A DNA stretch of 64,000 nt from Streptomyces chrestomyceticus JCM 4735 (lineage in GTDB: Bacteria; Actinomycetota; Actinomycetes; Streptomycetales; Streptomycetaceae), in assembly GCF_003865135.1 (NCBI RefSeq), contig NZ_BHZC01000001.1:8990001-9054000 (forward strand), read 5' to 3'. How positions within the stretch are numbered: position 1 is the stretch's first letter; each line of letters starts with the position of its first letter. Shown one piece after another: positions 8,863-50,452 of this stretch. The translations under genes and the position numbers were made by a program. Below the pieces are notes generated by a model. That model was not told the origin of the DNA, did not search any database, and was given only the letters and a program-made list of their open reading frames with translations.

Positions 8863-9020
8863 TGCGTGTTGGGGATGGTGGCGCCGATGCGGACAGGCGT
8901 CAAGGGAGTGCGCGCAACAGGGGGCGGAAGGACGGCTGTTGGTCCGGCTGTGTCAGGGTTTGCGGCCCGAAGGTGATGAGTTCGGCGGGGCAACGCATCG
9001 CCCCTGCAAGCTCATTGCGT

Positions 9021-9300
9021 TCAAGAGATGGAAGCTGACACCAGGACGGCGCTGAGCGCCATCAGGTCCGAGGCGACGAACAACCGTCCACCTCGGGGCA
9101 CCGGTGCAGCAGGTCGCGCATCGCCTTGGCACCGCCCGCGCGCGTGAAGTTCCCCTCCGCTTAGGGGGCGTCGATGCCCGCCCCCGAAGGCGCGCCGCAG
9201 AACACCGTGCGCGCTCGGAGATCACCAGGGCTATGGAGCGCGTGCGCCGGGTCACCAGGCAGCGGGCGGCTCCTGGCCGGGTACGTACTCGGTGGCCGTG
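9021..9300 (-). pseudogene. Decayed LacI-family transcriptional regulator
   Basis: Three out-of-frame pieces in correct order match a LacI regulator. They are EYVPGQ (end of the HTH region, near 9290), LVTRRTRSIALVISE (9258-9214, hinge and start of the effector domain), and AEGNFTRAGGAKAMRDLL...PEVDG (9160-9083) running into LFVASDLMAL (9083 onward, one base out of frame, stop at 9021). An in-frame TAA precedes AEGNF. Most of the sugar-binding domain is missing. The gene once read leftwards toward the GH55 gene and its palindromic operator, so it was probably that gene's repressor. Too short and broken to be functional. Nothing else is seen at 8721-8848, 8863-9020 or 9301-9434. Confidence 0.75.
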
Positions 9301-9434
9301 ACGGCGTCCTCCGCCTTGAGGCGCAGCGCTGCGTCCACGCGGGGCGCCCTCCCGAGACCCGGGGCAACGGGCGGGGCTGCCGCGACCGTGGTGACGACCG
9401 CCGCTGGGGCGCAGGAAGGGGAAGCCGCAAACGG

Positions 9435-9473
9435 CCAGGGCCGCGGGCGGGAGTGTCCCGTCCGCGGCCCTGG
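9435..9473. terminator. Strong hairpin terminator after the aminotransferase gene
   Basis: An 18-bp stem (left arm 9435-9452, right arm 9456-9473) with one G-T wobble and a GTG loop lies 16 bases past the aminotransferase stop. It insulates the aminotransferase operon from the LacI remnant and glucanase gene. Confidence 0.8.
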
Positions 9474-9488
9474 GGTGGTGTCCGCAGG

Positions 9489-10589
9489 TCAGCCCTTGGA
9501 CGCCACGGCGGCCAGCCGCTCGATGCCGGCGGCGAACTCGTCCGGCTCGAAGGACTGGAACGGCAGGCGGAGGAAGACCTTGCCCTCCGGCGGCGCGGCG
9601 TCGCCCGGGTAGAAGCCCGAGCCCCGGGTCAGCTTCAGGCCGTCGGCGGCCGCGGCCTTGAGGAACGTGGCCTCGTCCGTGGCGACGGGCAGGTGCACGC
9701 TCACGTAGTAGCCGCCGTGCGGTACGGCGAGCAGCGCGTCCTCGCCCAGCAGTTCGCGTACGGCCTTGACCGCGCCGTCGTGCCGGGGGCCGAGCAGTTC
9801 CCGGATACCCGCCACGTTCTCCTGGGCCAGGCCCGCCGCCAGGGCCTGCGCGGCGACCGCCTGGAGCAGCGGGGCGGGGGAGAGGTACGTGCCCTCGGCG
9901 AGCGCGGCCAGGGCGCCGAGCGTCTCGGGTGCGCCGATGACGTACCCGACGCGCAGACCGGGGCTGAGGATCTTGCTCAGCGAGCCCATCGTGAGCACTC
10001 GCCCGGCCGGCGCGAGCTCGAAGAAGCCGGCCGGAGCCTGGCCGCCGTACCGCAGCTCCCGGTAGGGGATGTCCTCCAGGATGAGGAAGTCGTGGGTCTC
10101 GGCGAGCTGCACCAGGCGGCGGCGCTTGTCCTCGCTCATGGTGACGCCGCTCGGGTTCTGGAAGTCCGGGATGACGTAGACGAGCGCCGGGACGCGCGTC
10201 GCCAGCCGGGCTTCGAGGGCGTCCAGGTCGAGGCCGTCGTGCTGGAGGGTGATGCCGGAGACCCGGCCGCCGTGCCGCTCGAAGATCTGCACCGCGCGGT
10301 CGTACGTGGGGGCCTCCACGTACACGTCCTTGCGGTCGCCCGCCAGGAGGTGCGCGGCGAGCAGGTCCAGCGCCTGGAGGGAACCGTTGGTCACGAAGAT
10401 CTGCTCGGCGCTGACCGAGTGGAAGGCCGCGAGCTGCTCGCGCAGGGCCGCGTCCCCCGTGTGGTTGCCGATCGGCGCGTACTGGAACACCCGGTCCTCG
10501 CTGTCCCGCAGGACGGCGGCGGTGTGCTCGGCGAGCTGCCGCGAGGGGATCGCTTCCTGCGGGGGGATGCCGCGCGAGAAGTGGAACAT
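9489..10589 (-). CDS. PLP-dependent class I/II aminotransferase
   Basis: The 366-residue fold-type I enzyme has the aspartate region NPSGVTMSEDKRRRL...ILEDIPYREL and the PLP lysine in GSLSKILSPGLRVGY. It resembles the HpgT/ARO8/LysN-like group that moves amino groups between 2-oxo acids and aromatic or aliphatic amino acids. The ATG has GGAG upstream. The gene follows an alpha-hydroxyacid oxidase gene by 111 bases on the same strand. The oxidase would make a 2-oxo acid and this enzyme would aminate it, the Hmo-HpgT logic of hydroxyphenylglycine synthesis. No hydroxymandelate synthase is present, so that specific product is not claimed. Confidence 0.85.
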   Translation of the reverse strand: MFHFSRGIPPQEAIPSRQLAEHTAAVLRDSEDRVFQYAPIGNHTGDAALREQLAAFHSVSAEQIFVTNGSLQALDLLAAHLLAGDRKDVYVEAPTYDRAVQIFERHGGRVSGITLQHDGLDLDALEARLATRVPALVYVIPDFQNPSGVTMSEDKRRRLVQLAETHDFLILEDIPYRELRYGGQAPAGFFELAPAGRVLTMGSLSKILSPGLRVGYVIGAPETLGALAALAEGTYLSPAPLLQAVAAQALAAGLAQENVAGIRELLGPRHDGAVKAVRELLGEDALLAVPHGGYYVSVHLPVATDEATFLKAAAADGLKLTRGSGFYPGDAAPPEGKVFLRLPFQSFEPDEFAAGIERLAAVASKG

Positions 10590-10625
10590 GCGTGGTTCTC
10601 CGATCTCGGAAAGTCGTGGTGCGGG

Positions 10626-10680
10626 TACGGCGTGCGATACGGGTGGAGCTGCAGGTACGGGTACGGATACGGGTGTGGAG
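10626..10680. repeat. Short GGTACG-like hexamer repeats between oxidase and aminotransferase genes
   Basis: The intergenic spacer contains several copies of GGTACG/GATACG-type hexamers in tandem (for example around 10652-10675). It has no recognisable gene. Confidence 0.45.
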
Positions 10681-10700
10681 CGGGCGGTGGTGCGGGGCCG

Positions 10701-11804
10701 TCAGGCCGCCCCGGCCGCCGCCCCGGCGCCGGCCTTGGCCACGAAGTGCGGCCCCAGCTCGTTGACATCGGCCGCGCCGAGCTGCCGGAGGGTGTCCTCG
10801 ATCTCCCGGCGCAGCAGCCGCAGCACCGCTTCGACCCCTTCGCGCCCGGCGACGCTCAGCCCCCACAGGTAGGGGCGCCCCAGGCAGACCGCGTCGGCGC
10901 CGAGCGCGAGGGCCTTGACGACGTGCACGCCGGAGCGGATGCCGCTGTCCATCAGGACGGCGCACCGGCCGTCGACCTCGGCCGCGACCTCACTGAGCGC
11001 GACAACACTGGGCACCGCCCCGTCCAGTTGCCGTCCGCCGTGGTTGGAGACGATGACGCCGTCCGCGCCGCTGTCCAGGCAGCGGCGGGCGTCGTCGGCC
11101 CGCAGGACGCCCTTGACCAGGAGGGGGAGCCGGGTCCTGGCCCGGATCCACAGCAAATCCTCCCAGCTCAGCGACAACCGGTCGATGCGGGCGCCGGCCG
11201 GTACCTCGCCCTCCAGGATGCCGAGCGCGCGCAGCGTCCCGAAGTCCACGTGCCCGGGTGTGGAGAACCCGGCGCGCTGGGCGTGCACCCGCAGTGCGGC
11301 GTGACTGGCGTCCACGGTGACCACCAGGGCCGTCGCACCGGCGGTCTCGGCCATGTCGATGGTCGCGGCGATGTCGTCGCGCGACCGGTAGGCGTAGAGC
11401 TGGAACCAGCCGGCCCGGCCCGACGCCTTGGCGATCTCCGGGAACGGGACGTGGCTGTCCGTGCTGACGACGGGGACGATGCCGGCCGCCTCGGCGGCGA
11501 GCGAGGTGGCGATCTCCGCGTCCTCGTGCAGCAGCCGCTGCGGGCTCGTCGGCGCGAGCAGGACGGGCATGGACAGGTGATGGCCGAGGACCGTCACGTC
11601 CGTGCGGGGTTCGGTCGTCGTACTGGCCAGGACCCGTGGTCTCAGCCAGATGTCGTCGAACGCCGCGATGTTGGCGCGTACGGTGCGATCGGTACCGGCG
11701 CCGCCGGCGACATAGGCGCGGCAGCCCTGGTCGAGCACCGCGTCACTGGCGGCCTCGAAGTCCGGCAGGGTCAGTAGTTCAGCGAGATTCCGTACGGGGT
11801 CCAT
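10701..11804 (-). CDS. FMN-dependent alpha-hydroxyacid oxidase (hydroxymandelate/lactate oxidase family)
   Basis: The 367-residue TIM-barrel flavoprotein oxidises a 2-hydroxy acid to the 2-oxo acid. Family marks are LLAPTSPQRLLHEDAE, GWFQLYAYRSRD, LLVKGVLRADDA, the active-site histidine in VSNHGGRQLDG, and the FMN-phosphate loop DSGIRSG...ALGADAVCLGRPYLWG. The ATG at 11804 (MDPVRNLAEL) is chosen because GGAGG lies five bases upstream; a longer frame to 11864 lacks support. The neighbour downstream is an aminotransferase, so the pair converts a hydroxy acid to an amino acid. Hydroxymandelate oxidase (Hmo) is one possibility; substrate choice cannot be read from sequence alone. Confidence 0.88.
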   Translation of the reverse strand: MDPVRNLAELLTLPDFEAASDAVLDQGCRAYVAGGAGTDRTVRANIAAFDDIWLRPRVLASTTTEPRTDVTVLGHHLSMPVLLAPTSPQRLLHEDAEIATSLAAEAAGIVPVVSTDSHVPFPEIAKASGRAGWFQLYAYRSRDDIAATIDMAETAGATALVVTVDASHAALRVHAQRAGFSTPGHVDFGTLRALGILEGEVPAGARIDRLSLSWEDLLWIRARTRLPLLVKGVLRADDARRCLDSGADGVIVSNHGGRQLDGAVPSVVALSEVAAEVDGRCAVLMDSGIRSGVHVVKALALGADAVCLGRPYLWGLSVAGREGVEAVLRLLRREIEDTLRQLGAADVNELGPHFVAKAGAGAAAGAA

Positions 11805-39713: not shown

Positions 39714-41366
39714 GTGTCATCCGCGCATCCGGGCACCGCCGACGAGGCCGCCCAGACAGGCGGGACGTTCACCCACCGGCAGATCCTGACGGCCATGTCG
39801 GGACTGCTGCTGGCCGTCTTCCTCGCGGCCCTGGACCAGACGGTCGTCGCCACCGCGATGCGCACCGTCGCGGACGATCTCCACGGCCAGACGGAACAGG
39901 CGTGGGCGACGACCGCGTACCTCATCGCCTCCGTGCTGGCGATGCCCTTCTACGGCAAGCTCTCCGACATCCACGGGCGCAAGCCGATGTACCTCATCGC
40001 GATCGCCGTGTTCGTCGCCGGATCGGTCCTGTGCGGTACGGCCGGGTCGATGACCGAACTCGCCCTCTACCGGGCGGTCCAGGGGCTGGGCGGCGGCGGG
40101 CTGATGTCCCTGCCCACCGCGGTGGTCGCCGATCTCGCGCCGGTACGGGAGCGGGGGCGCTACTTCGCCTTCCTGCAGATGGCCTGGGTGGCGGCCAGTG
40201 TCGTCGGGCCGCTGGCGGGCGGGACCTTCGCGGAGGCCGGTGAGGTGTTCGGCGTGGACGGCTGGCGGTGGGTGTTCCTGCTGAACGTGCCGCTGGGGCT
40301 GCTGGCCCTGGTCACCGTACGCCGGGCCCTCGACCTGCCGCACGAGCGGCGCGAACACCGGATGGACGTACTGGGGGCCGCGGCGCTGGCCCTGTTCCTG
40401 GTGCCGCTGCTGATCGTGGCCGAACAAGGCCGCTCCTGGGGCTGGACCGCGCCGGTCTCCCTCGTCCTCTTCGCGCTGGGCGCGGCCGGACTGGCGCTGT
40501 TCATCCCCGTCGAGCTGCGGCGCGGCGACGAGGCCGTACTGCCGCTGCGGCTGTTCCGGCGGGGCGGCATCGCCCTGTGCTCGGCGGTCAACTTCACGAT
40601 CGGCGTCGGCATCTTCGGTACGGTCACCACCCTGCCGCTCTTCCTCCAACTGGTGCAGGGGCGGACGCCGACCGAGGCGGGGCTGGTGGTCATCCCGTTC
40701 ATGGTGGGCACCATCGCCTCCCAGGTGGTGTCCGGCAAACTGATCGCGGACTCGGGCCGGTTCAAGAAGCTCGCCGTCGTGGGCCTGGGTTCCATGGCCG
40801 GAGCGCTGCTGACGCTCGCCGCGGCCGGCCCCGCGACCCCGATGTGGGGTATCACGCTGACCGTCGGCTGGCTGGGCATCGGCATCGGACTGTCCCAGAC
40901 CGTCATCACCCTGGCCATGCAGAACGCGGCGCCCAAGAGCCAGCTCGGGGTGGCGAACGGCGCGTCCGGCCTGTGCCGGCAGATCGGCGGCTCCACCGGC
41001 ATCGCGGTCCTGTTCTCCGTCCTGTTCTCGGTGGCGCTCGGCCGCCTGGCCGACCTGCTGCACTCCGGCCGCTTCAAGGCCCTCCTCACGGACCCGTCGG
41101 TCACCGGGGACCCCGCCAACCACCGCTTTCTGGCCATGGTCGATCCGGGGCGCGGTACGGGCATCGACCTGGACGACACGTCCCTGCTCCAGGGCATCGA
41201 CAGCAGGCTGGCGCAGTCGGTCACCGAGTCCTTCGCCCACGGCTTCCACGTCGTGTTCCTCGCGGCCGGAGCCGTGCTGCTGGCCGGTTTCGTCCTCACC
41301 TGGTTCCTGCGCGAACTCGACGACGGCACCCGGACACCGGAGCGCGCGCTGCGAGCAGTCAAGTAG
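39714..41366 (+). CDS. DHA2-family MFS multidrug exporter (EmrB/QacA type, 14 TM)
   Basis: 550 residues from GTG 39714 with GGAG/GAGG upstream. About 14 hydrophobic segments; motif C-like region LDQTVVATAMRTVADDLHG in TM1, motif A YGKLSDIHGRKPMYL, and ALYRAVQGLGGGGLMSLPTAVVADL. A long extracytoplasmic loop lies near the C-terminus (LTDPSVTGDPANHR...LLQGIDSRL), as in DHA2 exporters. It uses the proton gradient to export drugs. It is divergent from the MarR gene, which presumably controls it. Confidence 0.93.
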   Translation: MSSAHPGTADEAAQTGGTFTHRQILTAMSGLLLAVFLAALDQTVVATAMRTVADDLHGQTEQAWATTAYLIASVLAMPFYGKLSDIHGRKPMYLIAIAVFVAGSVLCGTAGSMTELALYRAVQGLGGGGLMSLPTAVVADLAPVRERGRYFAFLQMAWVAASVVGPLAGGTFAEAGEVFGVDGWRWVFLLNVPLGLLALVTVRRALDLPHERREHRMDVLGAAALALFLVPLLIVAEQGRSWGWTAPVSLVLFALGAAGLALFIPVELRRGDEAVLPLRLFRRGGIALCSAVNFTIGVGIFGTVTTLPLFLQLVQGRTPTEAGLVVIPFMVGTIASQVVSGKLIADSGRFKKLAVVGLGSMAGALLTLAAAGPATPMWGITLTVGWLGIGIGLSQTVITLAMQNAAPKSQLGVANGASGLCRQIGGSTGIAVLFSVLFSVALGRLADLLHSGRFKALLTDPSVTGDPANHRFLAMVDPGRGTGIDLDDTSLLQGIDSRLAQSVTESFAHGFHVVFLAAGAVLLAGFVLTWFLRELDDGTRTPERALRAVK

Positions 41367-42680: not shown

Positions 42681-44171
42681 ATGCCCACGGACCCAGCCGC
42701 ACTGGCCGACCGCCTGGGCCGCTGGTCGGCCGGCCGTGGTCCGCTGTACCTCCTGCTCGCCGCCCGCCTGCGGCACCTCGTGGACGAGGGCGAGCTGCCG
42801 ACCGGTACGGCGCTGCCGCCCGACCGGACGCTGGCGTCCGCGCTCGCCGTAGGGCGCGGCACGGTCGTCGCCGCGTACGAAGAGCTGCGCCGAGAAGGCC
42901 GGATCACCCGGCGCCAGGGGAGCGGCACCCGGGTCGCGGGGCCGGCGCGTACCGCACCGCAGGAGAGCACCAGGGCTCCGGTCTTCCTCCACCTCCTGGA
43001 GCCCCGCGACGACGACACGATCCTGCTGGCGTGCGCCGCCCCCACCGCGCCACCGCCGGTCCTGCTGGCCGCGTACGAACGGGCCCTGTCCCGGCTGGCC
43101 ACGGTCGAGGACGACATCGGGTACCACCCGTCGGGCCACCCGCTGCTGCGCCGCGCCGTCGCCCGGCACTACGGGCGGCGCGGGGTGCCGACCGAGCCCG
43201 AGAACATCCTGATCACCAACGGCGGGCAGCAAGCCCTCTCGCTGCTGGCCCGCGCCTTCCTCCAGCCCGGCGGCACAGCACTGATCGAGGCGCCCACCTA
43301 CCCGGGCGCCTTGGAGGCGTTCCGCGAACACGCCGTGCGCCTGCGGACGCTTCCCGTCGGCCTGGACGGCTTCGAAGCGGTGGTACGCGGCCCGTCGCGC
43401 CGCCCGGACCTCGCCTATCTCGTGTCCACTCACCACAACCCGACCGGAGCGGTGCTGTCACAACTGGCGCGCCGGCGCCTCGCGGTGGCCGCCGCCGACG
43501 CGGATGTCCCGCTCATCGACGACGAAGTCCTGGCCGACCTCGCCTTCCCCGGACACCGGACGCCCTCGCCGCTCGCCGCCTTCGGTACGTCGGTCATCTC
43601 CGTGGGCTCGCTCAGCAAGAGCGTCTGGGGCGGGCTGCGCGTCGGCTGGGTCCGGGCGGCCCGGCCCGTCGTCGACCGCCTCGCCCGGCTGCGCGCGGTG
43701 CACGACCTGGGCGGAAACCTTCCCGCCCAACTGGCCGCCGCCGAGCTGCTCCCGGGGATCGAAGACCACTGCCAGGAAACGGCCGCCGACCGCCGGGCCC
43801 GTCACGACCAGCTACGGGCGCAACTGGCGCGACACCTGCCGGACTGGGATGTCCCGCCCGTGACCGGCGGAACCACCCTGTGGGTGCGTCTGCCGCACGG
43901 CGACGGGGACTCCTTCGTGCAGACGGCCTTCCGCCATGGCGTCGTCGTGCTGCCCGGCCGGGGACTGGACGCCTCGGGAGGCAGCGGGGAATTCCTCCGT
44001 ATCCATTTCCTCGCCGGCGCCGACAGGCTGACCGAGGCGGTACGCCGGCTGGCGGCCGCCTGGCGTGATCACCATGCCGGCCGCGGTGCGGGCGCCCCGG
44101 CGCCCCGGTCACCGGCCGTCCGACGTCAAGCCCGTATGTCTGGTTCCGGTACGCGGGTGAGGTGGAAGTAG
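42681..44171 (+). CDS. MocR-type GntR/aminotransferase fusion regulator
   Basis: 496 residues from ATG 42681. An N-terminal GntR winged HTH (LRHLVDEGELPTGTALPPDRTLASALAVGRGTVVAAYEELR) is fused to a full PLP fold-type I domain with NPTGAVLS and the lysine motif VGSLSKSVWGGLRVGW. MocR proteins sense PLP or an aldimine of it and commonly control PLP, amino-acid or GABA metabolism. It is divergent from the cupin gene, the likely target. Its 3' end overlaps the convergent terpene synthase gene by 46 bases, coding for the non-conserved tail. Confidence 0.93.
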   Translation: MPTDPAALADRLGRWSAGRGPLYLLLAARLRHLVDEGELPTGTALPPDRTLASALAVGRGTVVAAYEELRREGRITRRQGSGTRVAGPARTAPQESTRAPVFLHLLEPRDDDTILLACAAPTAPPPVLLAAYERALSRLATVEDDIGYHPSGHPLLRRAVARHYGRRGVPTEPENILITNGGQQALSLLARAFLQPGGTALIEAPTYPGALEAFREHAVRLRTLPVGLDGFEAVVRGPSRRPDLAYLVSTHHNPTGAVLSQLARRRLAVAAADADVPLIDDEVLADLAFPGHRTPSPLAAFGTSVISVGSLSKSVWGGLRVGWVRAARPVVDRLARLRAVHDLGGNLPAQLAAAELLPGIEDHCQETAADRRARHDQLRAQLARHLPDWDVPPVTGGTTLWVRLPHGDGDSFVQTAFRHGVVVLPGRGLDASGGSGEFLRIHFLAGADRLTEAVRRLAAAWRDHHAGRGAGAPAPRSPAVRRQARMSGSGTRVRWK

Positions 44172-45514
44172 AAGTCCTCCGGGTCGCCCTTCTTGTCCAT
44201 CACGCACAGCAGGACGTCGTCGGTGAGACGGCGGAAGTGGTCGATGACCGGCAGTTGGTCGTAGACCATCGCCGTGGACTGCTTGCCGCGGTGGACGACC
44301 TCGCGCAGCGAGGCCAGGCCCGATTCCGTGTACGAGTAGACCGCCCCGTCCTCGTCGCGGCAGAGCAGCGGCTCCACGTGGTCGGCGTCGACGAACCGTT
44401 TGCCGTACCACCGCATCTTCGTGAGCAGCTCGGCGTTCTCGCCGGTGTGCTCGAAGGCGCCGCCTCGCCACGTCCCGATCAGGAAAGCGGTGTCGACGGG
44501 GGCCAGCCGGTCGAAGAGGGCCGCGAGTTCCGCGGTGTCGTACGTGGCTCCGGACGCGACGGCGTCCAGGACTTCCTGCTCGGTACCCATGGGCGGGGCC
44601 TCCTTCGGCCGGGGCGGGACGGATGGGGCGGGCACGGTACTGCCCGGCAGGGGAGGGGCGGCGGTCCGGCCGGGCCGTACGGGGTCGAAGCGGTGGTACA
44701 TCCGGGCGTGCCAGATCACCACCCGCTGCAGCGCCACCGCGGAACCGTACCCGGCGGCGGTGAGCGGAGCCAGGGTCCGCAGGCAGCTTTCCAGCCCCGC
44801 GTCGGCGCGTTCGTACGCCTCCCGCTCGGTCAGGCCGAGGGTCAGGGCGTCGGGCTTGCCCTCGGCCTGCTCCCGGTGGTGGCCGCGCAGGTCGTTGAGC
44901 AGACGGATCGCGGTCGCGGCGTCGTGCAGCGCGGTGCGCAGTACGGGCAGGCGGTCGGCCAGGCCGGGCTCGTCCAGGAGCGCCCACAGGGCGGTGACCT
45001 GCTGTTCGACGCCGATGCTCCAGGCGCCGTGCCGCAGATAGTCGGCCAGCGGGGGCGCCGTGCCGCCGGTGGCGGCCGTCCGGGAAGTCTCGTGTTCGTA
45101 CCGCATGCCGGTCAGCGTCTGATGCATGCTTTCGCGCCATACGGCGAATAGTTCGGGCCGTCCGTCTCCGTCCACGTCCCGGATGATCTCGGCCAGAGCG
45201 CGCGCCACGGGATCGTCGCTGCCGCCGTCGTGCCCGTCGAGAATCCGGTGCCAGTCCTCGACGCGGGCCGTGGGCCAGTCCGCGCCCGGCGAGCCGGGCG
45301 CTTCGGGCGCGTCCAGGACGTTGTCGATGGCCATCAGCCAGACCGTGAGCCGGGACAGCCGCAGACAGGTGTCCGGCGGGAGCCACGGGGTGAAGAACGC
45401 CGTCTGCAGACACATGAGGGGGACCAGCGCGGTGTCCACGGGTAAACCGAGCTTTTCGAGCCAGTTTTCGAGCCTGGGCATGTTTTGCAGGGCGGCGGAG
45501 CATGTGTCCGCCAT
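44126..45514 (-). CDS. Class I terpene synthase-like domain fused to a GXWXG/DUF4334 domain
   Basis: ATG 45514 (MADTCSAALQNMPRLENWL; GGAG nine bases upstream) gives 462 residues; an upstream GTG at 45562 is possible. Residues 1-280 form an all-helical class I terpene-synthase-like domain with a metal motif Asp64-Asn-Val-Leu-Asp68 and a second motif Asn207-Asp-Leu-Arg-Gly211-xxx-Glu215 (NSE type). After a Pro-rich linker, residues 309-462 form a GXWXG (FLIGTWRGGAFEH) plus DUF4334 domain. An internal ATG at 44590 has GAAGGAGG eight bases upstream, so the second domain may also be made alone. Divergent from the class II cyclase gene; the pair suggests a bicyclic terpenoid pathway. Confidence 0.78.
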   Translation of the reverse strand: MADTCSAALQNMPRLENWLEKLGLPVDTALVPLMCLQTAFFTPWLPPDTCLRLSRLTVWLMAIDNVLDAPEAPGSPGADWPTARVEDWHRILDGHDGGSDDPVARALAEIIRDVDGDGRPELFAVWRESMHQTLTGMRYEHETSRTAATGGTAPPLADYLRHGAWSIGVEQQVTALWALLDEPGLADRLPVLRTALHDAATAIRLLNDLRGHHREQAEGKPDALTLGLTEREAYERADAGLESCLRTLAPLTAAGYGSAVALQRVVIWHARMYHRFDPVRPGRTAAPPLPGSTVPAPSVPPRPKEAPPMGTEQEVLDAVASGATYDTAELAALFDRLAPVDTAFLIGTWRGGAFEHTGENAELLTKMRWYGKRFVDADHVEPLLCRDEDGAVYSYTESGLASLREVVHRGKQSTAMVYDQLPVIDHFRRLTDDVLLCVMDKKGDPEDFYFHLTRVPEPDIRA

Positions 45515-45734
45515 GGAGACGATCTCCGAGGGAAGGTGGCCGGCCGGCGGTGAGGTGTGCACGCCGTCAGGCTACGTCCCGGGAATCCGGGCGCGGTCCG
45601 CCGCCCCGTACCCCGGTGTGCCCGGAAGCCGCCGCGCGCGGCCGGGCCGCCCGGTCGTCCCCCGGCCGCCCGGCAGTACGCGGGACGGCGCGTAAGCCCG
45701 AAGTACCGGCGGGACCAGCAGAAATCGAGGCAAG

Positions 45735-47369
45735 ATGTCAGCAGGACGCGCGTTACCGCAGCTCTCGGCCGCCCGCTTGTCACCCACGCTCGCGCCACGG
45801 GTGAATCGTTCCCTCACCCTCGCCACCCGGCACGCCCTCACCACCCAACGGGCAAACGGCTCCTGGCTCGCCGTCCCCGACCCCCGGATCACCGAGACCG
45901 CGCTGTGCACGCTGGCCCTGGCGTGTTCACCGCAACCCGGCGCAGGCCACGCCGCCGCCCGGGGCCGGGCCTGGCTCGCCGCCGGAGCCGCCCCGCAGGA
46001 CCACCACCCGGTGGCCCGGGCTGTGGAAAGCGCGCTGCTGTCCCTGGCCTTGGGCGCCGACGGCTCCATCGACGTGAGCCACCCCGCCTTCGAGGACCCC
46101 GCGCTGTCGGCCCGGGCCCGGCTCCTCCAGGCCCTCGCCCTGCACACGGGCCGGACGGTCCGCGGCGGCGCCGGGCCTGACGTGCTGCGCACGCAACTGG
46201 CCGCCGCGGTGGCCGCCCCGGGACGGCTCAAGCGCTGGTCGCGCGTGGAACTCTGGTCGGCGCACGCCCTCGTGGCGGCCCACTTCGGCGACCGTAAGGC
46301 CGCCCTGCTGGCCGCCCGTACGATCGCCGACCAGCAGTCCCCGGCGGGCGACTTCTTCGCCAACCCGGTCACCACGGCTCTCGCGGCGCTCGCCCTCCAG
46401 GCCGCCGCGCCGGGCACCGCCGCCGCCCGCCGCTGCACGGAATACCTGCTCACCAGCCAGCACGCCGATGGCACCTGGCGCTTCACCACCAGCGACGTCT
46501 GGGACACCGCGCTGGCCGTACGGGCCTTCCGGGGGCAGCCGGACTTCGACCGCCACGCGCTGCCCGCCGCCGTCGCCTACCTGGTCGCGGCGCAGAACCC
46601 GGACGGCGGCTGGCCGTTCCGCCTGGGCGTCGAGTCCGACAACGACACCACCGGGGCCGCCCTGATCGCCCTGGACGGCGGGAGCCACGCTCCTGGCGGG
46701 GTGATCCGGGCCGGGGTGCGGCACCTGGCCCGGCAGCAGCGGGACGACGGGCTCTGGCGCACCTGGCAGTCCGCCGGAGATCCGCCGGTGGACGACGTGA
46801 TCGCCCATGTGGTCACCGCGCTGGCCCGCCACTCCGGCCGCCACCGCGTGGACCTGGCCCCGGCGCGCGCCTGGCTCACCGGACGCCTCGACGGCCAGGG
46901 ACGCTGGTACGCCGGCTGGTACCGGGGCCTGGCGTACGCCGCGGCCGAAGTCCTCCCCGCCCTCGACGCCCCCGCACCGCCGGACGGCCATGCCGCCGCC
47001 CGCGTGCTGGCCGAAACCCGTAACCCGGACGGCGGCTGGCCGGTCGAGGCAGGCGGCCCGAGCACCCCTGCCGCCACCGGCCTGGCGCTGGCAGCTCTGG
47101 AGCGCGGCGGACTCCGCGACGAAGACCTCTGGGCGCCGGGGCTGACGTATCTTGTGGAGACCCAGCGCGATGACGGCACCTGGCCGGGCGTACCGCTCAT
47201 GTACGGCCCGCGGCCGCTCCTCACCCACTTCCCCACGCACACCCACGCGTTCACCGTGGAGGGCCTCTTCGCCGGTCAGCGCAGGCTCCGCGCCGCCGCG
47301 CGAGGCGGCTGCCTCCAGCCGCACGGGGAGGAGCTGTCCTACGGCCGGGCGGAAGGGGGACCGGCGTGA
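45735..47369 (+). CDS. Class II terpene cyclase (squalene-cyclase-like) with variant motif
   Basis: 544 residues from ATG 45735 (GAGG upstream). QW-type repeats (QNPDGGWPFRL, TRNPDGGWPVEA, TQRDDGTWPG) show the beta-gamma double alpha-barrel fold of bacterial class II cyclases. The catalytic Asp-rich motif is Asp302-Asn-Asp304-Thr-Thr rather than DxDD. Such enzymes protonate a prenyl diphosphate to form drimane- or labdane-type bicyclic diphosphates. The stop overlaps the P450 start (GTGA). With P450, SDR and methyltransferase genes downstream it starts a tailoring operon. No prenyl diphosphate synthase is in the cluster. Confidence 0.85.
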   Translation: MSAGRALPQLSAARLSPTLAPRVNRSLTLATRHALTTQRANGSWLAVPDPRITETALCTLALACSPQPGAGHAAARGRAWLAAGAAPQDHHPVARAVESALLSLALGADGSIDVSHPAFEDPALSARARLLQALALHTGRTVRGGAGPDVLRTQLAAAVAAPGRLKRWSRVELWSAHALVAAHFGDRKAALLAARTIADQQSPAGDFFANPVTTALAALALQAAAPGTAAARRCTEYLLTSQHADGTWRFTTSDVWDTALAVRAFRGQPDFDRHALPAAVAYLVAAQNPDGGWPFRLGVESDNDTTGAALIALDGGSHAPGGVIRAGVRHLARQQRDDGLWRTWQSAGDPPVDDVIAHVVTALARHSGRHRVDLAPARAWLTGRLDGQGRWYAGWYRGLAYAAAEVLPALDAPAPPDGHAAARVLAETRNPDGGWPVEAGGPSTPAATGLALAALERGGLRDEDLWAPGLTYLVETQRDDGTWPGVPLMYGPRPLLTHFPTHTHAFTVEGLFAGQRRLRAAARGGCLQPHGEELSYGRAEGGPA

Positions 47370-48786: not shown

Positions 48787-49572
48787 ATGTCCACGCACCT
48801 CCCCCCGTCCGGCGACGGAACCCGGCCCGGTCGGCTGCGGGACCGGGTCGCCCTGGTGACCGGTGCCGCCTCCGGAATAGGCGCGGTGTGCGCGGAGCGG
48901 CTGGCGGCGGAGGGCGCCGTGGTGGTGGCCGCCGACCTCGACGAGGACGGTGCCGCCCGGGTGGCCGGGCAGATCACCGAGGCCGGGGGCACCGCCCTGG
49001 CCCGCCGGGTGGACGTCACCGACCTGGACAGCGTCACCAGCGTCGTCAAGGAGGCCGCCACCATGGGCGACGGCCTGCGGATCGCGGTCAACAACGCCGG
49101 GATCAGCGGCCCCCTCACCCCGCTGGCGGAGCTGTCACCCGCCGACTTCGACGCCGTGACGAAGGTGAACCTCTACGGCGTCTACCACGCGATGCGCTGC
49201 CAGCTCCCCGTGATGGCCGCGACGGGCGGCGTCATCGTCAACCTCTCCTCCATAGCCGCCCACTCGGCCTTCCGCGGCCACGCCGCCTACGCGGCGGCCA
49301 AGCAGGGCGTCCTCGCCCTGACCCGGACCGCGGCCCGCGAGTACGCGAGCCACGGCATCCGGGTCCTGTCCGTGTCACCGGGCGTCGTCGGCACCCCGAT
49401 GGTCACCTCGCTGCCGCCCGGCAGCACCGACAACCTCATCGCCTCCGTCCCGTTGCAGCGCACCGCGCAACCGGCCGAAGTCGCCGCCCTCATCGCGTTC
49501 CTGGTGTCCGACGACGCCTCGTACATGACCGGCAGCGACCATGTGGTGGACGGCGGGTACCTGGCCAAGTAG
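48787..49572 (+). CDS. SDR oxidoreductase in the terpenoid cluster
   Basis: 261 residues from ATG 48787 (AGGAG upstream), 29 bases after the P450. Classical SDR: RVALVTGAASGIGAVCA, VNNAGISGPLTPL, VNLSSIAAHSAF, AYAAAKQGVLALTR (Tyr-xxx-Lys), VSPGVVGTPM, and C-terminal YMTGSDHVVDGGYLAK. ADLDEDG after beta-2 suggests NAD over NADP. It probably oxidises an alcohol made by the P450 or from the terpenyl diphosphate. Confidence 0.9.
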   Translation: MSTHLPPSGDGTRPGRLRDRVALVTGAASGIGAVCAERLAAEGAVVVAADLDEDGAARVAGQITEAGGTALARRVDVTDLDSVTSVVKEAATMGDGLRIAVNNAGISGPLTPLAELSPADFDAVTKVNLYGVYHAMRCQLPVMAATGGVIVNLSSIAAHSAFRGHAAYAAAKQGVLALTRTAAREYASHGIRVLSVSPGVVGTPMVTSLPPGSTDNLIASVPLQRTAQPAEVAALIAFLVSDDASYMTGSDHVVDGGYLAK

Positions 49573-49705
49573 CGCGAAAACCGCTGGCGGTGCCGATCTC
49601 GTGGAACTTACCCTGCGTCGGCGGTCGCTGCTCTCAACTCAGGTCGGCGGCCCCCGGCTTCGGCCCGCGAAGCCGGCCTCCCACAGAAAGGCCCGGCAAA
49701 CGTCC

Positions 49706-50452
49706 GTGGACCCAGCCGACTTCTACACCGGCCTCGTCGCCGAGTCCTTCGCCCCGTTGCGGTCCTTCTCCCCGGACCCCGAGGTCTATGCGGCCTTCCT
49801 CCGCGAAGTGGGCGGCCCGGCCCTGGAACTGGGCTGCGGGGACGGTGACCCGCTGCTCGCCCTGCGTCGCAGCGGCCTGGATGTCGAGGGCGTCGACTCC
49901 TCCGCCGACATGCTGGAACGCTGCCGCCGCCGGGCCGACGAGGCGGGCGTCACCGTCACCGTCCACCACCAGCGGATGGAAGCGCTCAGCCTGTCACGCC
50001 GGTTCCAGGCGGTCTTCCTGGCCGGGCCCACCTTCAACCTGCTGCCGGACGACAGCGTCGCCGCGGCCGCTCTCCACCGCGTCCGCCGCCACCTGGCCGA
50101 CGGCGGCACCGCGCTGATCCCGCTGCACGTCCCGGGCCCGACCCCCGCCGACCGGATCGGGCAGGTCCGCACCGCTCCCGCCGACGACGGCGCCGAGCTG
50201 CGGTTCTCCGTGGTGTCGGAACAGCGCGACGAGGCCGCGCGCACCAGGACCACCGTGCTGCGCTACGAACGCCACGGACCCGGCGGGCCCACCGTGGTCG
50301 AGCGTCCGTGGCTGCTGCACTGGTACACCCGCTCCGGCTTCGAGAAGCTCGCCGCCGAGGCCGGGCTGCGTACGGTGTCGGTGACGGACGGGGACGGCAG
50401 CGCCGTGGAGGGGGACGCCCCGGACATGGTCTTCCGCCTGCGGGCCGACTGA
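49706..50452 (+). CDS. Class I SAM-dependent methyltransferase
   Basis: 248 residues from GTG 49706 (VDPADFYTGLVAESFAPLR); no strong ribosome site is seen, so the start is the least certain in this operon. SAM motif I is ALELGCGDGDPLLALRRSGLDVEGVDSS, with SADMLERCRRRADE and a motif IV-like FLAGPTFNLLPDD. It probably methylates oxygen on the terpenoid (hydroxyl or carboxyl), or another small molecule. It lies 133 bases after the SDR gene on the same strand. Confidence 0.85.
   Translation: MDPADFYTGLVAESFAPLRSFSPDPEVYAAFLREVGGPALELGCGDGDPLLALRRSGLDVEGVDSSADMLERCRRRADEAGVTVTVHHQRMEALSLSRRFQAVFLAGPTFNLLPDDSVAAAALHRVRRHLADGGTALIPLHVPGPTPADRIGQVRTAPADDGAELRFSVVSEQRDEAARTRTTVLRYERHGPGGPTVVERPWLLHWYTRSGFEKLAAEAGLRTVSVTDGDGSAVEGDAPDMVFRLRAD

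Follow-up and report, generated by a model that had tools for sequence, protein, structure and literature searches.

A Streptomyces class I terpene synthase fused to a GXWXG/DUF4334 domain with a conserved internal start

Introduction

Why would a bacterial class I terpene synthase carry a GXWXG/DUF4334 domain at its C-terminus, and why would the joined gene hold a second translation start in front of that domain? Both questions are raised by a gene in a 64,000-nucleotide stretch of the Streptomyces chrestomyceticus JCM 4735 genome (contig NZ_BHZC01000001.1, positions 8,990,001 to 9,054,000; hereafter the window, whose own numbering is used for coordinates). An earlier note, made from the letters of this stretch, had drawn attention to the fusion. 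Here, we describe its architecture, its homologs and the gene contexts in which DUF4334 occurs elsewhere. With modest confidence, we favor a reading in which a diterpene synthase of the type acting on copalyl diphosphate (CPP) is combined with an isoprenoid-handling accessory domain that would be made in both tethered and free form.

Results

The fusion gene lies on the minus strand (44126..45562) and encodes 478 amino acids from a GTG at 45562. Between 45514 and 44126 the minus-strand frame is open over 462 amino acids, the numbering used for all residues below; reading the interval 44126..45514 on the forward strand is ruled out by stops. The earlier note had named no strand and had begun the gene at the ATG at 45514. 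As the GTG, 16 codons upstream, is kept in all nine homologs and the codon homologous to the ATG is ATA in seven of the nine, the ATG was discarded and the start assigned to the GTG. Along the protein, the class I terpene synthase domain (44672..45562 (-)), recognized by Pfam family PF19086 and by matches to Stt4548 and Sat1646, extends to about residue 281, the match to PF19086 (Terpene_syn_C_2) itself covering residues 56-224 with 50.1 bits (cut-off 23.7; E 3.7e-13). It is followed by a Pro-rich linker (44591..44671 (-), residues about 282-308), delimited from the homolog alignment, and then, in this order, by the GXWXG domain (PF14231; 44345..44521 (-), residues 332-390) and the DUF4334 domain (PF14232; 44153..44317 (-), residues 400-454), which score 73.9 and 78.4 bits, far more than the cut-off of 25. 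Open frame and Pfam matches thus bear out the proposed continuity from synthase motifs through the linker into GXWXG/DUF4334.

The whole architecture is shared by nine distinct full-length Streptomyces sequences, that of the window and those of loci L001-L005 and L080-L082, which were aligned and are 66-88% identical to one another; compared with the window, the full-length relatives are 65-88% identical over the synthase and 72-86% over DUF4334. When species genomes were scanned, six loci came up, all from Streptomyces: five with the complete fusion and one with a truncated gene. Among 295 Streptomyces genomes, some match occurs in 37, with a full-length fusion in four (the window's own counted) and a truncated one in two (G060 and G048). 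The linker varies in length through indels among the nine homologs, keeps a constant frame and contains a stop in none of them. The search for the domain pair in other genomes, suggested in the earlier note, thus returned the complete fusion repeatedly, and with nine sequences keeping it the architecture is not due to chance. Searches of open-access PubMed Central text, fused bacterial terpene synthases included, turned up no enzyme built in this way, and within that scope the earlier note's statement to this effect holds. SrGuaS of S. rimosus, a possible counterpart, made sesquiterpenes in E. coli; the accessible part of that report (PMC7192455) mentions no fusion.

Decayed copies were also seen, in S. 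klenkii (L006:9836-11014) and at L079:6437-6865, with the synthase largely lost and the DUF4334 part still open; in L006, remnants of the neighboring class II cyclase gene overlap the copy on the opposite strand. The DUF4334 part retains its start in both truncated relatives, and a codon-position test of selection on it gave no clear signal either way.

Among solved structures, the N-terminal half matches Stt4548 best (PDB 7e4m, E 4.5e-24); Sat1646 (7e4n) follows at E 1.1e-10 and pentalenene synthase weakly at E 0.0013, and Terpene_syn_C_2 matches all seven members of set A1, one of them truncated, at E <= 0.001. With Stt4548 and Sat1646 as nearest solved relatives, the terpene-synthase identity that had been read from motifs is upheld. 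Both enzymes experimentally convert CPP to isopimara-8,15-diene, and in Sat1646 the helix C motif, through two of its Asp, and the NSE motif bind magnesium (PMC9814573). In the fusion, the Asp-rich metal motif DNVLD (45311..45325 (-), residues 64-68) aligns with DDCAD of Stt4548, and its two Asp positions, the magnesium binders in Sat1646, are invariant in 9/9 sequences. The NSE-type motif NDLRGHHRE (44870..44896 (-), residues 207-215) reads NDLRGH(H/R/Q)RE throughout the nine; its Asn, Asp and Glu positions all match, and Gly occupies the Ser/Thr position in every sequence. The effector triad proposed for Stt4548 (Arg236, Ser198 and Ile199; PMC9814573) aligns with Arg204, the sensor, and with Ser166 and Ile167 of the fusion. 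Arg204 and Ile167 are invariant in all nine sequences, and position 166 is Ser in three and Thr in six.

These motifs bear on whether the synthase domain might be catalytically dead and act as a scaffold for DUF4334, which we consider very unlikely. Although the atypical DNVLD and the Gly of the NSE motif would fit a dead enzyme, the metal-binding Asp pair, the NSE Asn, Asp and Glu, the sensor Arg and the effector Ile are preserved in 9/9 sequences, and Sat1646, an active enzyme, carries the equally atypical motif EDWQVD (PMC9814573). In the active-site pocket, Leu200 and Phe204 of Stt4548, as named there, align with Gly168 and Gln172 of the fusion; the pocket is therefore different, and the product of the fusion synthase is probably not that of Stt4548.

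Within the gene, a Shine-Dalgarno sequence, GAAGGAGG (44599..44606 (-)), lies exactly 8 bases before an internal ATG (44588-44590), from which a putative internal cistron (44126..44590 (-)) would encode a free GXWXG/DUF4334 protein of 154 amino acids. The earlier note had noticed this site in the window; it also proves to be conserved, the block being purine-rich in 9/9 sequences inside an otherwise variable linker and the start being ATG in eight of nine homologs and GTG in L005. Pairing with the anti-Shine-Dalgarno sequence, for which we used a 12-mer that we take to be the 16S rRNA 3' end, reaches -12.5 kcal/mol at the window's internal start, rank 1 of 20 in-frame start-like codons. The internal start likewise ranks first among 20-27 such codons in seven of the nine genes; the exceptions are L003, where it comes second, and L005, where the aligned GTG is second of 27 and an ATG two codons on is seventh. 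Arg at the Shine-Dalgarno codon is written AGG or AGA in 6/6 cases, compared with 10/373 Arg codons elsewhere in the nine genes and with just 2/9 in each of two other columns that hold Arg in all nine, an argument that is weaker than these raw frequencies suggest because synonymous sites among the fusion genes are not saturated. The same lack of saturation and the relatedness of the sequences limit the strength of the internal-start counts as a whole. In addition, the internal Met is paired in the alignment with the fourth residue of chain A of the solved DUF4334 protein 4mve, presumably its native first Met behind a three-residue tag; under this assumed numbering, the internal start would coincide with the first Met of 4mve. 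Taken from these comparisons, the internal start looks to be under selection, and a free DUF4334 protein seems to be produced besides the fusion.

A retained start could also be a relic. In that case, the fusion would be a neutral read-through join of two operon genes, with only the free DUF4334 at work, an idle tether and the internal start as the old gene start. An internal start with its Shine-Dalgarno sequence is what an ancestral separate gene would leave behind; a related cluster in genome G141, described below, keeps DUF4334 as a separate gene; and in the truncated L006 and L079 much of the synthase is gone and DUF4334 remains open with its start. Against a neutral join speaks that no stop has arisen in nine sequences 66-88% identical, in which the linker changes length and still keeps its frame. 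We regard such a join as possible, at a probability clearly below that of a functional fusion.

Initiation of the full-length protein appears to be of another kind. The GTG at 45562 pairs weakly with the anti-Shine-Dalgarno sequence and lacks a clear Shine-Dalgarno sequence of its own, and a -10-like hexamer, TAGCCT (45569..45574 (-)), ends 6 nucleotides before it. Hexamer and weak Shine-Dalgarno sequence together suggest a leaderless fusion transcript. The block TAGCCTGACGGC (window 45560-45574), directly before the GTG start, is alike in the nine homologs; the remainder of the intergenic region upstream is not.

The C-terminal half matches 4mve with E 1.2e-50 over residues 4-149 of its 151. 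No relevant paper on 4mve/Tcur_1030 was found in the open-access literature, and titles and abstracts in open-access PubMed Central yielded no DUF4334 or GXWXG work on terpene synthases. The view that DUF4334 proteins are without settled function stands as far as an assigned function in the searched literature is concerned and has to be amended in that a structure has been solved. In a midpoint-rooted tree of 57 DUF4334 rows, all nine fused domains fall into a single clade (99/93), which adjoins actinobacterial stand-alone proteins and groups with L129, L130 and L131; this group is split (100/99) from 45 other rows. Long branches, including L145, were flagged as meeting the fused-domain group, and the tree was built without 4mve, the truncated and frameshifted copies and sequences that contain unknown residues (L128).

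What stand-alone DUF4334 genes are found next to may indicate what the domain does. DUF4334 has a match in 59 of 394 genomes of the class, and GXWXG in 21 of 297 genomes of the family. We examined 54 DUF4334 loci outside synthase clusters (the GMC fusion L061 counted), many of them closely related to each other. They were drawn from the Streptomyces and family scans, minus G060 and G506 (apparently the L006 and L005 loci), and from the class scan, which contributed 18 sites in 16 genomes, mostly top-ranked, and in two of these genomes a second copy as well. A zinc alcohol dehydrogenase, whose best solved relatives are a zinc-binding alcohol dehydrogenase and benzyl alcohol dehydrogenase, lies directly downstream on the same strand in 37/54 loci and in 31 of the 34 from Streptomyces (the misses are L061, L074 and L086). 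An Lcp-type rubber oxygenase (latex-clearing protein; MPAB_Lcp_cat) is present in 25/54, mostly 3-4 kb from DUF4334 and mostly accompanied by a TetR gene. Acyl-CoA dehydrogenase, thiolase, multifunctional enoyl-CoA hydratase, acyl-CoA ligase and aldehyde dehydrogenase genes also recur. Loci with DUF4334 directly upstream of the zinc alcohol dehydrogenase, often beside lcp and TetR, are found within the range L059-L098, at L134 and elsewhere.

The association with Lcp extends to whole genomes. A strong Lcp match occurs in 18 of 150 Streptomyces genomes, and it does so in 10 of the 14 with DUF4334 outside terpene clusters versus 8 of the 136 others (Fisher p 3e-8, from a table compiled by hand that assumes the 150 genomes to be G000-G149). 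In six of these ten genomes Lcp lies at the DUF4334 locus, and in the other four the two are on different contigs. For an lcp2 locus of Streptomyces, the genes listed in the literature are TetR, a hypothetical protein, alcohol dehydrogenase, TetR and lcp2 (PMC9108482). Judging by gene order, the hypothetical protein may be a DUF4334 protein.

The genes next to the fusion fit a terpenoid pathway. Divergent from it lies a class II terpene cyclase gene (45735..47369 (+), 544 amino acids, motif DNDTT), followed by genes for a cytochrome P450 (47366..48757 (+)) and a short-chain dehydrogenase/reductase (SDR; 48787..49572 (+)); all three adjoin the fusion divergently in 8/8 full-length relatives. 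A methyltransferase gene, possibly for tailoring (49541..50452 (+)), has a counterpart of at least 33% identity only in L001 among the eight. The class II acid motif DXDD is not matched: the window, its eight relatives and L179 have DNDTT, and further class II relatives show DNDSS (L077) and DVDTT (L180). To assign the DNDTT site, we started at the C-terminus, counted toroid repeats and used a DPPxxDV anchor, with what we take to be the squalene-hopene cyclase sequence as reference. A phmmer alignment that pairs DVWD with the DXDD of 7xr7 was set aside, as repeat counting would place DNDTT there. An MFS (major facilitator superfamily) transporter near the cluster (39714-41366 (+)) reaches 1054 bits with the NCBIfam model OtrB, whose cut-off is 999 and which represents the oxytetracycline efflux pump family, and a 93% identical protein lies near the L001 terpene cluster too.

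The class II partner leaves room for another substrate, and the class I domain might take as substrate the C15 (drimenyl-type) product of a DXDTT class II cyclase or an acyclic diphosphate without prior cyclization. Consistent with this, the partner has DNDTT rather than DXDD, its best solved matches include 7xr7/7xq4 (which we take to be drimenyl diphosphate synthase), no geranylgeranyl diphosphate (GGPP) synthase was found in the core cluster, and active-site residues differ from those of Stt4548. Set against this, the solved enzymes closest to the class I domain use CPP, and the related G141 cluster has a polyprenyl synthetase. On the whole, we judge a C15 or acyclic substrate unlikely.

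DUF4334 also turns up in other terpene clusters. In G141 (L077:4661-11748 (-)), class II, P450 and SDR genes with 49-50% identity are followed by a separate, frameshifted DUF4334 gene and then by P450, NUDIX and polyprenyl synthetase genes; a family search of the whole genome placed the nearest Terpene_syn_C_2 match more than 900 kb from the cluster. G382 encodes a 699-amino-acid GMC oxidoreductase-GXWXG/DUF4334 fusion (L184:5981-8080 (-)), adjoined by a gene for 1214 amino acids (L184:8096-11740 (-)) that holds a squalene-cyclase-like part besides two Terpene_syn_C_2 stretches. The Pfam family search detected no class I match on the same stretch in G141, G086, G097 and G411 (the G411 contig being only 14.7 kb long); the negative of our own synthase profile over 13 stretches was discarded, as this profile missed the two Pfam-found synthase stretches of L184. 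In L131 (G889), a terpene synthase and a P450 lie no more than 7 kb from DUF4334, with other genes intervening, and this case was given little weight. Overall, DUF4334 recurs with oxidizers of hydrophobic alcohols (alcohol dehydrogenase, SDR, GMC) and with isoprenoid-making or -cutting enzymes. The role in terpenoid processing that the earlier note had suggested is thus backed by several gene contexts; its tie to the class I synthase is not, because other loci pair DUF4334 with alcohol-oxidizing enzymes and have no such synthase adjacent.

Discussion

Taken together, our comparisons point, somewhat more than not, to a CPP-type class I diterpene synthase with a tethered and a free DUF4334 accessory domain for isoprenoid handling. 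The divergent class II cyclase with its DNDTT motif would make a bicyclic diphosphate of the copalyl type, on which the class I half of the fusion would act, and the neighboring P450 and SDR would oxidize the resulting diterpene. The tethered DUF4334 would be a recruited accessory domain working with alcohol-oxidizing enzymes; it may bind the hydrophobic terpenoid alcohol or aldehyde, and perhaps isomerize it or relay it from the cyclase to the oxidases. Translation of the full-length fusion would begin at the GTG, probably on a leaderless transcript, and that of free DUF4334 at an ancestral ribosome site and start codon retained in the fused gene. An accessory domain for isoprenoid alcohols or aldehydes, recruited by fusion with its own start kept, appears to be the most economical view of these data.

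Several observations weigh against this reading. The Ser/Thr position of the NSE motif is Gly in all nine sequences, the core cluster is without a detected GGPP synthase, and the unsaturated synonymous sites weaken the codon argument for the internal start. Around the fusions L080-L082 no Lcp was detected, nor is an alcohol dehydrogenase partner known at these loci, so what holds in the catabolic setting may not apply to the fusions. The G141 link rests on one imperfect gene, as the DUF4334 copy is frameshifted in that assembly. Moreover, DUF4334 is not obligatory in such clusters, being absent from the G183 terpene locus (L180, about 8978-11424), where a class II relative (40%, DVDTT) is directly followed by a class I synthase and has a P450 on its other side, and from the contig of a 51% class II relative in G086, which has neither a DUF4334 nor a class I match. 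Finally, nitrobindin (THAP4 heme-binding), chosen for comparison because of a shared GTWxG motif, aligned with DUF4334 in hhalign at a probability of about 0.1% with shallow profiles, which lends no support to a nitrobindin-like fold.

A broader and more speculative extension is that DUF4334 might be a general isoprenoid-carbonyl isomerase or relay, serving both rubber breakdown and terpenoid biosynthesis and captured here with both leaderless and Shine-Dalgarno-led initiation; we put this forward tentatively and think it rather doubtful. Even so, the locus offers a testable function for a family with a solved structure and no assigned function in the literature searched. Given its recurrence beside alcohol dehydrogenase and lcp, DUF4334 may be a missing component of actinobacterial rubber degradation. 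The fusion also adds a new architecture to the bacterial terpene synthases and points out an uncharacterized diterpenoid-type cluster in nine Streptomyces.

Compared with known systems, the fusion is closest in its N-terminal half to Stt4548 and Sat1646, homologous class I synthases of pimarane-type pathways that share the metal-motif positions and the effector triad and whose genes likewise cluster with one for a class II cyclase (PMC9814573). Unlike the fusion, they comprise about 290-300 amino acids and have no C-terminal domain, and the active-site residues given for Stt4548 are different. The C-terminal half has the same two Pfam domains, PF14231 and PF14232, as proteins of the 4mve type, whereas stand-alone DUF4334 genes sit with alcohol dehydrogenase, often with lcp, and are not fused to a synthase. 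The order of the lcp2 rubber-degradation locus, as published (PMC9108482), matches that of DUF4334 loci, with DUF4334 in the place of the hypothetical protein; these lcp loci are catabolic, however, and contain no terpene synthase. In the HAD-TCbeta drimenol synthase AsDMS and in fusicoccadiene synthase, a partner domain is likewise flexibly linked to a terpene cyclase (PMC12365925), but there the second domain is a phosphatase or a prenyltransferase, whereas the function of the domain joined to the synthase described here is unknown.

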